Program-made: the position numbers and the translations under genes | The notes under the pieces: generated by a model | The model's database searches: none | Told to the model about the DNA's origin: nothing | Seen by the model: the letters and a program-made list of their open reading frames with translations, nothing else | Shown: positions 46,631-51,020 of the stretch, piece after piece | Numbering within the stretch: position 1 is the stretch's first letter | How the letters are laid out: each line of letters begins with the position of its first letter | NCBI GenBank assembly: GCA_003243965.1 | Contig: QHBO01000011.1 | Coordinates: forward strand, 1-64,000 | Direction of reading: 5' to 3' | Length of the DNA stretch: 64,000 nucleotides | DNA from: Chloroflexota bacterium | Lineage (GTDB): Bacteria > Chloroflexota > Limnocylindria > QHBO01

Positions 46631-46963
46631 ATGCCGGTAACCGTCAGCGCGCGGTTGCGCGCGCTCACCGACGACGTCGGCAGCCAGGCCGCGATCGCGG
46701 AGCTCCTGCACGTCCACCGCTCCAGAGTCTCGCGCTGGCTGAGCGGGGGACAGCCGGACCCACGCAATCGGGCGCGGATCGCCGGCCTCGATTTCGTTCT
46801 CTCGCGGCTGCTCGACGTCTACGAACGTGACGGGGCGATGGAGTGGCTGCGGGGCTTCAACGCCCACCTCGACAATCGGCGCCCGATCGACTTGCTGCGC
46901 GAGGGCCGCGCGCTCGAGGTGGCCGCGGCCATCGAGCAGGCCGCGGCCGGCAGCTATTCCTGA
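46631..46963 (+). CDS. Xre/MbcA/ParS-type antitoxin (HTH + DUF2384-like)
   Basis: SQAAIAELLHVHRSRVSRWLSGGQPDPRNRARIAGLDFVLSRLL...GFNAHLDNRRPIDLLREGRALEVAAAIEQAAAG. Confidence 0.82.
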   Translation: MPVTVSARLRALTDDVGSQAAIAELLHVHRSRVSRWLSGGQPDPRNRARIAGLDFVLSRLLDVYERDGAMEWLRGFNAHLDNRRPIDLLREGRALEVAAAIEQAAAGSYS

Positions 46964-46979
46964 GGGCGCGCCATCGGGG

Positions 46980-47564
46980 GTGGAGATCTTCCACACGTTC
47001 CCGCGGCGTCGAGGCGCGGGTGTCCACGATCCCGGCGGCGTCCTCCACGTTCCTCGGGACCGGCAGGGGTTCGGGCGGTTCGACGCTCGCGATCGGTACG
47101 GCGCCTTCTATTTCTCGCTGCTCGCGGTCTCGGCGGTGGCCGAACAGATCCAGGCGTTTCGTGGCCGCGAGCTGACCGACGCGGCCCTCCGCCGCGCGGA
47201 TGGCTCCCGTCTCGCGCTCGCCCGGCTCGAGCTGGCCGACGGGACCCGGCTCGTCAACCTCGACGATCCTGCCCAGCTGCTGGCCCGCGCGATGCGTCCC
47301 AGCCATGTTGCCACCTCGGATCGGACGCGGACCAGGAGGATCGGCGAGCGACTCTTCGACGAGGGGAGTGACGGGCTCCTGTGGTGGTCGGCGCTCGAGG
47401 CGTCCTGGCCGAACGGCGTGGTCTACGCCGAGCGCGCCCTCGATCGCTGCCGGCCAATCGGTGACCCGGAGGTCCTGACCCTCGACCACCTGACCGTGAT
47501 CGAGGCGGCCGCGGCCCTCGGTATCGGTATCGGTGGTGGCATGGACGCGACCATCGGTCGGTAG
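46980..47564 (+). CDS. RES-domain toxin
   Basis: GFGRFDARDRYGAFYFSLLAVSAVAEQI and C-terminal LWWSALEASWPNGVVYAER; follows the Xre antitoxin. Confidence 0.83.
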   Translation: MEIFHTFPRRRGAGVHDPGGVLHVPRDRQGFGRFDARDRYGAFYFSLLAVSAVAEQIQAFRGRELTDAALRRADGSRLALARLELADGTRLVNLDDPAQLLARAMRPSHVATSDRTRTRRIGERLFDEGSDGLLWWSALEASWPNGVVYAERALDRCRPIGDPEVLTLDHLTVIEAAAALGIGIGGGMDATIGR

Positions 47565-47592: not shown

Positions 47593-47922
47593 ATGGCTTC
47601 TGAGCGCCCCGCCTCGCCTCTCGGCTTCGGGTCCGGCACGTCCGTCGACCACCACGATGGTGTCCGATGGGTCGACTACACGAACATCAGCTGGAACCCG
47701 GTCTTCTGCAAGCGCTGCGACATCTGCGTCGAGATCTGCCCCAAGAACACCCTCGTCCTGCGCAACGACGCGATCATCGAGGAGCAGGACTGCATCCTGT
47801 GTGGCCTGTGCGAGCGGTACTGCCCCGACCTGGCGATCGAGATGCTCCCCGCCGCGGTTGCCGCGCACGAAGTCCGCACCGCCGCCGGAAAGGACACGGC
47901 GGCGGCCGACGAGCCGCGCTAG
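47593..47922 (+). CDS. korD: 4Fe-4S ferredoxin subunit of 2-oxoacid:ferredoxin oxidoreductase
   Basis: CKRCDICVEICPKNTL / CILCGLCERYCPDLAIE. Confidence 0.85.
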   Translation: MASERPASPLGFGSGTSVDHHDGVRWVDYTNISWNPVFCKRCDICVEICPKNTLVLRNDAIIEEQDCILCGLCERYCPDLAIEMLPAAVAAHEVRTAAGKDTAAADEPR

Positions 47923-47929
47923 CTCACCG

Positions 47930-49066
47930 ATGCGCAAGCTGACGCAGGGCAACGAGGCGGTCTTTCGCGGGGCGGTGGCTGCCGGCGCACGCTACTACGC
48001 GGGATACCCGATCAGCCCGTCGACCGAGATCCTCAACGTTGCGTCCGGCTACGCGGCCGAGCATCCCGAATTCGGCTTCCTTCAGGCCGAGGACGAGATC
48101 GCGAGCGCCAACGCGATCATCGGCGCCAGCCTGGCGGGAGCGAAGTCCTTCACGGCCACTTCCGGTCCGGGGTTCACCCTCATGCAGGAAGCGATCGGCT
48201 ATGCCCAGAAGGTCGGCGTGCCGTGCGTGATCGTGAACGTCCAGCGGGTCGGCCCGGCGACGGGGATGCCGACCATGCCCGGGCAGGGCGACGTCATGCA
48301 GGTCAGGTTCGGCTCGACCGGCGACTACACCCCGCTCGCGTTCTACCCGAACGGCGTCGCAGAGGCCTTCCGGGTGACGGTCGACGCCTTCAATGCCGCG
48401 GAGGAATCCCTGTCGCCGGTGGTGATCCTGTCCGACACCTTCGTCGCGCACCTCAACGAGGTGGTGGACCTCGACGACATCGGGGCCGGAATCGATGTCG
48501 TCCCGCGCAGCATGCCGGCCCTGGCCCAGCACGCGGCGGGCAGCCCGCGCTTCTTCGCCGGGGTGTTGATGTATGAGCAGGGGCCGAACGCGGGTGAGCC
48601 CGCGACGGCCGATGCCGATGAGTATCTGCGGCAGTTCTACGCCGCCAAGCGGCGCCACCTGGATGTCGCGTCCCGTTACGCGCGGTTCGAGCACGGCTGG
48701 AACGTCGACGCCGAGACGCTGGTGATCTGCTACGGCATCGTCTCGCGCGTCGCGGCGCCCCTGGCTCCCGACTTCGCGCTGTTCAGACCAATCCGCATCC
48801 ACCCAATCCTCGCCGACGAGCTGCGCGAGATCGCTCCGCGCTACCGCGAGGTGGTGTGCATCGAGGCCAACGACGGGCAGTACGCGGATCTGGCGGAGCT
48901 GGCCATCCATCGCGAGGTCAAGCGCGTCCCGCTGCTCGGCGGCCGCATCTCGCTGGAAGCGGTGCGCGACGGCCTCACCCGAGTGTTGGGCGGCGGACCC
49001 TCGGAGCCGCCGGTCCCGCCTCCCCCGACCGAGCGCGTGGCGCCGTCACCGCTGGGAATCGGCTGA
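47930..49066 (+). CDS. korA: 2-oxoacid:acceptor oxidoreductase subunit alpha
   Basis: LTQGNEAVFRGAVAAGARYYAGYPISPSTEI...FLQAEDEIASANAIIGASLAGAKSFTATSGPGFTLMQE. Confidence 0.93.
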   Translation: MRKLTQGNEAVFRGAVAAGARYYAGYPISPSTEILNVASGYAAEHPEFGFLQAEDEIASANAIIGASLAGAKSFTATSGPGFTLMQEAIGYAQKVGVPCVIVNVQRVGPATGMPTMPGQGDVMQVRFGSTGDYTPLAFYPNGVAEAFRVTVDAFNAAEESLSPVVILSDTFVAHLNEVVDLDDIGAGIDVVPRSMPALAQHAAGSPRFFAGVLMYEQGPNAGEPATADADEYLRQFYAAKRRHLDVASRYARFEHGWNVDAETLVICYGIVSRVAAPLAPDFALFRPIRIHPILADELREIAPRYREVVCIEANDGQYADLAELAIHREVKRVPLLGGRISLEAVRDGLTRVLGGGPSEPPVPPPPTERVAPSPLGIG

Positions 49067-50460
49067 TGCCCGAAGCACCGATTGCGGAGCTCAGCTTCAA
49101 GCAGCACCTCAAGCTCGAGCTGTTCCCGACCATCTGGTGCCCGGGGTGCGGGATCGGCACGATCATGATGCAGCTCGCCATGGTCCTCGAGGAGATGGGC
49201 CTCGACGAGCGGAACACGGTGATCGTGACCGGCATCGGCTGCACCGGCCGGATGGGGAGCTATCTGAGGCACGAGAGCGTGTACACCCTGCATGGCCGCA
49301 CACTGCCGGTCGCCGAGGCGATCAAGACCGTCCGCCCCGAGCTGAAGGTGATCATCGTGGCCGGCGACGGCGACACCGCGAGCATCGGCGGCAACCACCT
49401 GCTGCATGCCATCCGGCGCAACGCACCGGTCACGGTGCTGTGCAACAACAACGAGATCTACGGGCTGACCGGGGGCCAGACCGGTCCCACTACCCCGACC
49501 GGCACCAAGACCCTGTCGAGCCCGGGTGGCAACCCGAACACGCCCATCAACCTTCAGGCCATCGTGCGCAGCTCTGCCCACGCGGTGTACGCCAAGACCA
49601 CGGTCTACCACCAGCTCCACATGCGCAACGTGATCCGGGAGGCGATCCAGCACGAAGGCTTCAGCCTGGTCGACATCACCAGTCAGTGCATCGAGAACAA
49701 CGGTCGGCGCATCGGGTTCGCCAGCGCGAACGAGATGCTCGGCTTCTACCGCAAGACCTACAAGCGTGCGCCCAGAGATGCGGACCACCTGAACCCGTTC
49801 GAGATCGGGATCCTCTACCCGCAGACCGATGACACCGCCTCCAACGGGAACGGGGCAACATCCGTACCGGCGGCGCTCCCGGCGCAGCCGAAGGCACACA
49901 TCGCTTCAGCCTCCGATTCGCCCGGCGCGGGCGGCGCGACGGCCAGGGTGCCGGTGGCCGACGACGAGAAGGCGCGACGTCGTGCGGAGTCACAGCGGCG
50001 GCTGGCGCTCATGAGCCAGCTGAGCTCCGAGATGAAGATGCGTGTGGCGCGCGGTGAGCTGCAGCTGGCCGACGCGTTGCGCGGCGCCGGGTTGGAGGTG
50101 CCGCCCGAGGTTGCCGCCACCGCCCGAACGGGGGCCAGCGCGCCCGAGGGTGCCCCGCAGCCGGCGAGCCGCCTCGAGGTGAGTGCCACCGGAGAAGACC
50201 CGCGCACCGAGACCCGCCGCACCGAACTGGACGCGCAACGCGGGGAGCAGGCGGCGGAATCTGCCGGCCCGCCGGCGGATGCGCGGCCTGCCGCGATGCC
50301 CGCTGACCCCAAGCAGGGGCGCCGCGAGGAGGCACTTCGGCGAGCGGCGCTGATGGCGCGGCTGCCGCCCGACGTCAAGCTCCGCGTCGCGCGGGGCGAG
50401 CTGGATCTCTCCGATGCGCTGCGCGAGGCGGGGATCGACCCCGGCCAGATCGGCCAGTGA
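49066..50460 (+). CDS. korB: 2-oxoacid:acceptor oxidoreductase subunit beta with duplicated C-terminal module
   Basis: WCPGCGIGTIMMQL, GIGCTGRMGSYL, GDGDTASIGGNHLLHAIRRN; extra C-terminal ~180 aa with two homologous modules. Confidence 0.92.
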   Translation: MPEAPIAELSFKQHLKLELFPTIWCPGCGIGTIMMQLAMVLEEMGLDERNTVIVTGIGCTGRMGSYLRHESVYTLHGRTLPVAEAIKTVRPELKVIIVAGDGDTASIGGNHLLHAIRRNAPVTVLCNNNEIYGLTGGQTGPTTPTGTKTLSSPGGNPNTPINLQAIVRSSAHAVYAKTTVYHQLHMRNVIREAIQHEGFSLVDITSQCIENNGRRIGFASANEMLGFYRKTYKRAPRDADHLNPFEIGILYPQTDDTASNGNGATSVPAALPAQPKAHIASASDSPGAGGATARVPVADDEKARRRAESQRRLALMSQLSSEMKMRVARGELQLADALRGAGLEVPPEVAATARTGASAPEGAPQPASRLEVSATGEDPRTETRRTELDAQRGEQAAESAGPPADARPAAMPADPKQGRREEALRRAALMARLPPDVKLRVARGELDLSDALREAGIDPGQIGQ

Positions 50461-51020
50461 CGACGCGCATCGCTCTCGACGGAGTCGGGGGTCAGGGGGT
50501 GCGGGTGATCGCCGGGGTGCTCGGCGCGCTCCTGGCGCGGATGGGCAAGGAGGTGACGGTGCTGTTCGACTACGACAGCAGCGTCCGCGGCTCCATGTCG
50601 GATGCGTTCGTCATCTTCGACGACCGGCCGATCGCCAACCCGGTGGTCGAAGAGGCGGACATCATGCTGAAGCTCGCCGACAAGGGGCACCTGCGGATCA
50701 CCGGCCGGAAGGTGATCACCGACCTGGGCCTCGGTCGGCCGGGCGACGAGCAGATTCCGTTCGCCTCGCTCGGCAGTGAGCACTTTGGGAAGGAGCTGTT
50801 CGGCAACATGATCGCGCTCGGCCGGCTCCTGCGCCTGGCGAGCATCGACTTCAATGAGGCCGCGATCCGCGCCTCTCTGCCGCAACGCTTCGCCGATGAG
50901 AACGTCGCCGCCATTCGATTCGGGTACGAGCTGACGTCCGAGGAGATCGGCCGCTTGGCGCGGGCGGCGCCGCCATCGCGCTTCCAGATGAATGCGGCGG
51001 CGACTTCCCCATCGCGGTGA
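50457..51020 (+). CDS. korC: 2-oxoacid:acceptor oxidoreductase subunit gamma
   Basis: LDGVGGQGVRVIAGVLGALLARMGKEVTVLFDYDSSVRGSMSDAFVI; 4-nt overlap with beta. Confidence 0.88.
   Translation: MTTRIALDGVGGQGVRVIAGVLGALLARMGKEVTVLFDYDSSVRGSMSDAFVIFDDRPIANPVVEEADIMLKLADKGHLRITGRKVITDLGLGRPGDEQIPFASLGSEHFGKELFGNMIALGRLLRLASIDFNEAAIRASLPQRFADENVAAIRFGYELTSEEIGRLARAAPPSRFQMNAAATSPSR

Follow-up and report, generated by a model that had tools for sequence, protein, structure and literature searches.

A duplicated orphan module with a predicted three-helix fold at the C-terminus of KorB in one family of uncultured Chloroflexota

We analyzed a 64,000-nucleotide stretch of a Chloroflexota genome (the window; contig QHBO01000011.1, positions 1 to 64,000) that carries a contiguous korD-A-B-C cluster on the + strand. 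The korD gene (47593..47922, +) encodes a ferredoxin-like subunit with Fer4 domains, korA (47930..49066, +) an alpha subunit (PF01855, 5.6e-52), korB (49066..50460, +) a beta subunit of 464 aa, and korC (50457..51020, +) a gamma subunit (PF01558, 8.1e-20). The genes are tightly packed: korA and korB overlap by 1 nt, and the korB stop overlaps korC by 4 nt. The same korDABC gene set surrounds korB in the sister lineages examined, and the four subunits correspond to those of Helicobacter pylori OorDABC. Directly upstream of korD lies a gene resembling Xre/MbcA/ParS-type antitoxins (46631-46963, +; PF09722 at 1.1e-5, just past the cut-off), followed by an overlapping ORF (~46900-47564, +) that by eye resembles a RES-domain toxin. 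The two are probably an Xre-RES toxin-antitoxin pair.

By sequence, korB encodes a 2-oxoacid:ferredoxin oxidoreductase beta subunit of the KorDABC/OorDABC type with an intact OorB/KorB core (residues 1-255; 49066..49830, +). The Pfam scan matched TPP_enzyme_C (PF02775) to this core at 6.6e-29, and the NCBIfam model TIGR02177 (PorB_KorB) matched KorB at 4.6e-60, which is under that model's own cut-off; no NCBIfam equivalog model scored above its cut-off. Among PDB sequences, H. pylori OorB (8ys5) matched residues 10-254 at 1.4e-50, and its chain 8ys5_C also ranked first in Foldseek (E 6.6e-18). The GDG...NNNE motif of the TPP-binding C-terminal-type domain (GDGD...NNNE in the window) is invariant in the KorB alignment. 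The cysteines of WCPGCG, GIGCTGR, and QCIENNG (Cys25, Cys28, Cys59, and Cys208 in the window) are kept across the alignment, and we take them to be the ligands of a 4Fe-4S cluster. Judging from the closest structures, the substrate is probably 2-oxoglutarate.

KorB does not end with its core. Residues 256-464 form a C-terminal tail of about 209 aa, slightly longer than the ~180 aa given in an earlier reading of the sequence alone (the sequence-only reading), which had correctly recognized the tail itself. Because the core is complete and ends where its solved relatives end, the tail is extra to catalysis. It begins with linker 1 (residues 256-298; 49831..49959, +), 70% of which is P/A/G/S/T, and continues with module N (residues 299-345; 49960..50100, +), linker 2 (residues 346-412; 50101..50301, +), and module C (residues 413-464; 50302..50457, +). 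The first part of linker 2 (RTGASAP...SATG.DPRT) is kept in the two-module relatives.

The two modules are repeats of each other. The sequence-only reading had proposed two homologous tail segments, and this was borne out: the two peptides that it quoted, both in the korB frame, share 22/36 residues and 73/108 nt. Its end coordinates were right, but its starts (49972 and 50317) lay 12-15 nt early; the exact positions are 49987-50094 (residues 308-343) and 50329-50436 (residues 422-457). Local alignment of the tail halves scored 136, above all 5000 shuffles (38.7 +/- 7.1, maximum 80). The duplication is old, because just 12 of the 22 shared residues have kept their codon. Thus, the repeat in the KorB tail is real and old.

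An AlphaFold run on KorB with an alignment of 27 relatives predicted each module as a confident three-helix unit (pLDDT about 80-95). In module N the helices span residues 299-316, 321-328, and 334-340 (pLDDT about 80-94). In module C they span 415-430, 435-442, and 448-454 (pLDDT about 89-95 over these three main helices), with a further short helix at 459-462. Residues 256-298 and most of 355-412 were modelled at pLDDT <50; linker 2, mostly at pLDDT 29-52, contains a short helix (347-354) and a low-confidence one (380-395). Module C modelled alone gave the same helices (pLDDT 83, pTM 0.57). The modules are thus predicted to be autonomously folded three-helix units carried on disordered Pro/Ala-rich linkers, in agreement with the small helical domain on a linker that had been suspected from the sequence.

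We could not assign the module to a known family, as the sequence-only reading had also found. Searches of Pfam, NCBIfam, and PDB sequences by profile gave no assignable family for the tail module, and the Pfam search gave no confident match to any well-described domain. The Pfam near-matches (ScdA_N, DUF7387, DUF7931, and 56B_RHH) were rejected because they all fell below cut-off and left part of either the module or their own profile uncovered. Foldseek searches of the PDB and of viral models yielded no significant match (best E about 1). In the Pfam scans the tail did not match PF02817, the peripheral subunit-binding domain of E2 chains; the genome's sole PF02817 match lies on another contig (C12), away from korB. 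Kinship with the N-terminus of the actinobacterial integration host factor (mIHF) was likewise discarded: NF041260 had no match above cut-off in the genome and none on KorB, and the module profile had no PDB sequence match up to E 10, whether to solved mIHF chains or to others. The profiles of the phage protein families PHROG 9085/9323 (function unknown) did give matches, the best, with PHROG 9085, at E 6.1e-4 for one member. We did not accept this match because a frame running antisense to an aminotransferase gave that profile a better score (1.2e-5); composition suffices to explain the matches, and a phage origin by this route was rejected. A tblastn search against phages found no match. Our search of the openly accessible literature found nothing on such tails.

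We wondered how widely the module is distributed. The window's order was sampled with 22 genomes from nine genera, all of one family. A KorB core is present in 17 of these 22 genomes, and the module is present in the same 17. Absence of the tail from close relatives would have pointed to an assembly or annotation artefact; instead, every KorB of the order keeps it (17/17), and an artefact is ruled out. KorB and the module are both missing from five genomes (G009, G012, G015, G016, and G017), all of genus g5; one of these is 94% complete and four other g5 genomes have KorB, and the absence appears to reflect enzyme loss or incomplete bins. Two modules occur in 12 of the 17 genomes, and in each of these 12 the N copy corresponds to module N; the other five (G003, G007, G008, G014, and G018) have one module. 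The proposed duplication therefore holds for 12 genomes but not as a fixed trait. Two genomes with both modules (G006 and G011) have korB split across two contigs. In G007, ~19 core residues of KorB (the HQ.HMRN...GFS region; L044:294-1295) are missing in frame, by assembly error or real deletion. G003 encodes a second KorB/PorB-like core, 40% identical, on another contig (L123, G003:C156:1100-1702); no module beyond the one on its KorB turned up in G003.

Outside the family we detected no true module. A set of about 155 further genomes from the class gave only four chance-like matches (L094-L097), judged so at 18-20 bits versus 79-98 for true copies, and a weak match to an ABC permease (L031) was also judged chance. 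A phylum-wide sample of 399 genomes gave no match beyond the family that reached E 0.001. Wherever we looked for the motif, elsewhere in the genome, in related korB genes, and in the genomes of the order, the class, and the phylum sample, it occurred only on KorB and in one family; linker 2 is likewise restricted to KorB, bar one marginal match at E 0.009. As far as these sequences go, the module is an orphan accessory domain restricted to a single family-level clade of uncultured Chloroflexota.

To follow the history of the duplication, we used a tree built from KorA, the KorB core, and KorC, in which the family forms one clade (100/100). The single-module species are scattered among the two-module ones: G014 groups with G013, G010, and G011 (96/91), G007 with G005 and G006 (100/100), and the single-module G008 and G018 with each other (99/96). 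In a tree of the 41-residue modules, 11 of the 12 N copies grouped together, apart from a group of C copies (90/85), and the modules of single-copy species fell on the side of the latter; with so few columns (41) the resolution is low, and this is moderate evidence. Mean module identity was 0.68 for N-N, 0.77 for C-C, and 0.53 for N-C pairs. The single module of G014 resembles N copies over its first half (0.70 against 0.45) and C copies over its second (0.71 against 0.47), the pattern that would result had recombination between N and C deleted the intervening stretch. Taken together, these results fit one duplication before the family diversified, followed by several reductions. The early date is suggested by the separate groups of N and C copies, and later loss by recombination by the nesting of single-copy species among two-copy ones and by the G014 chimera. 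Some single-copy modules may nevertheless be ancestral.

Sequence comparison also indicates that the tail is under purifying selection and is constrained as translated sequence. Pairwise Nei-Gojobori omega, calculated from small counts, was 0.05-0.16 in the core and mostly 0.1-0.4 in the modules; linker 2 gave 0.07-0.32 and linker 1 gave 0.2-0.5. The fastest was the N module of the window itself (0.67 and 0.75 in two comparisons). Six positions (R3, M13, L16, K21, A25, and A34) are invariant in 29/29 module copies.

How does this enzyme compare with known ones? Its core fold and motifs are shared with H. pylori OorDABC (8ys5/8ys6) and the Magnetococcus 2-oxoglutarate:ferredoxin oxidoreductase (6n2n), whose beta chains (273-292 residues) have no module; the matches reach only to residues 212-254 of KorB. 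Solved beta subunits that are separate chains have 273-314 residues, which bears out the view that known ones are compact. Sister Chloroflexota KorBs (L046-L073, L075), with cores 65-73% identical in almost all cases, end 8-47 residues past the core without modules. In place of KorB modules, most sister lineages examined have a conserved, helical-looking C-terminal hairpin on KorC (PEQAAS.FAERYAE.VLAGTAPAEAVE.AA; L046-L073), which was not found in the window's family. The KorB module is not detectably a relocated copy of this hairpin, since neither hhalign nor hmmsearch found homology. Sister KorDs (L046-L073) end in a conserved tail (ARGPAVAGTDP.RGITD.ESAP.VDR.NPT) that was also not found in the window's family. 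Conversely, the family has its own conserved KorA extension (GGPSEPP.P...SPLGIG / EPPIP...SPLGIG; window 48990-49066), which differs in sister lineages, and its own conserved KorC tail (APPSRF.MN.AA / APPSRFEMNDAATAP; window 50950-51020), different outside. These KorA and KorC tails are a lead and not evidence of contact with the KorB module.

What might the tail do? Our candidate function, to which we give slightly less than an even chance, is protein docking by tethered domains of an oxidoreductase that acts on a 2-oxoacid, probably 2-oxoglutarate. In this KorDABC-type enzyme, the beta subunit would carry an accessory arm peculiar to the lineage, in which disordered linkers suspend one or two three-helix modules beyond the complete core. 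The modules would dock a partner and keep it near the enzyme, and two copies would provide avidity. Candidate partners are an acidic ferredoxin, the family-specific KorA and KorC C-tails, or another TCA-cycle enzyme. We count in favor of docking the complete core, the presence of the module in all 17 KorB genomes and only on KorB, its confident fold on flexible linkers, and low omega. We also count the charge of the modules, net positive in 29/29 (+1 to +5) against an acidic KorD (-4 to -9 in the relatives checked), and the distinctness of the N and C copies, apparently kept apart since before the family radiated. Against it, five species have a single module, so that the second copy is at times dispensable; the window's N module evolves faster; the positive charge is modest; and many conserved module positions are hydrophobic and would build the module core, so that their conservation need not mark a contact surface. 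A narrower version, possible but less probable, is a built-in docking arm whose orphan modules would recruit a specific partner into a metabolon. This would parallel the subunit-binding domains of 2-oxoacid dehydrogenases without being related to them: PF02817 is also a small helical domain on a Pro/Ala-rich linker of a 2-oxoacid-oxidizing enzyme, yet the tail, lacking a sequence match to it, belongs to a different family, and the likeness is in working only.

The main rival, which we consider rather unlikely, is self-association, in which the modules would bind each other or the enzyme body and thereby control oligomerization or gather the enzyme into clusters. Pairing could occur between the related but diverged N and C copies that a chain carries, and the sister KorC hairpin together with the differing KorA and KorC tails makes C-terminal remodelling of the complex plausible; however, single-module species exist. 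A special case of docking, the capture of the acidic ferredoxin acceptor by mildly basic modules so as to raise its local concentration, seems improbable. The uniformly positive modules and the KorDs, acidic in all relatives checked, are what it predicts, but the window's module charges are small (+4 and +1 over 41 residues), basic charge is common among small helical domains, and the expected docking site of ferredoxin in related enzymes is close to the cluster-bearing core, which we count against a tether. It is more improbable still that the tail is baggage of the lineage, folded but of no functional importance and free to drift and duplicate: the varying copy number, the poorly conserved linker 1, and the failure to see the module elsewhere would suit this idea, whereas the fact that all KorBs across nine genera retain it, at omega values well under 1 and with six invariant positions, does not. 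Least likely of all is nucleic-acid binding by helix-turn-helix (HTH) modules on a moonlighting KorB regulator, because the third helix, which would have to serve for recognition, is not basic (position 33 is D/E in 25/29 modules, and position 37 is E/Q in most); a marginal NCBIfam match to a 'DNA-binding protein' family (E 0.0098) and weak Foldseek matches, nearly all to HTH bundles that share the general three-helix topology (sigma region 4, TetR, ParB), are its support, but no fold or sequence match was significant, the best PDB match having E 1.4 and probability 0.25.

Thus, the enzyme is a known one, and what is new is its duplicated orphan accessory domain. The solved ferredoxin-linked 2-oxoacid oxidoreductases that match KorB have compact beta subunits and no tethered arm. 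The module is an unclassified domain family, fit for a Pfam-type entry. This clade-specific, conserved module, duplicated early and later reduced in several species, is a small, cleanly deletable element for testing whether enzymes of this kind form larger assemblies.
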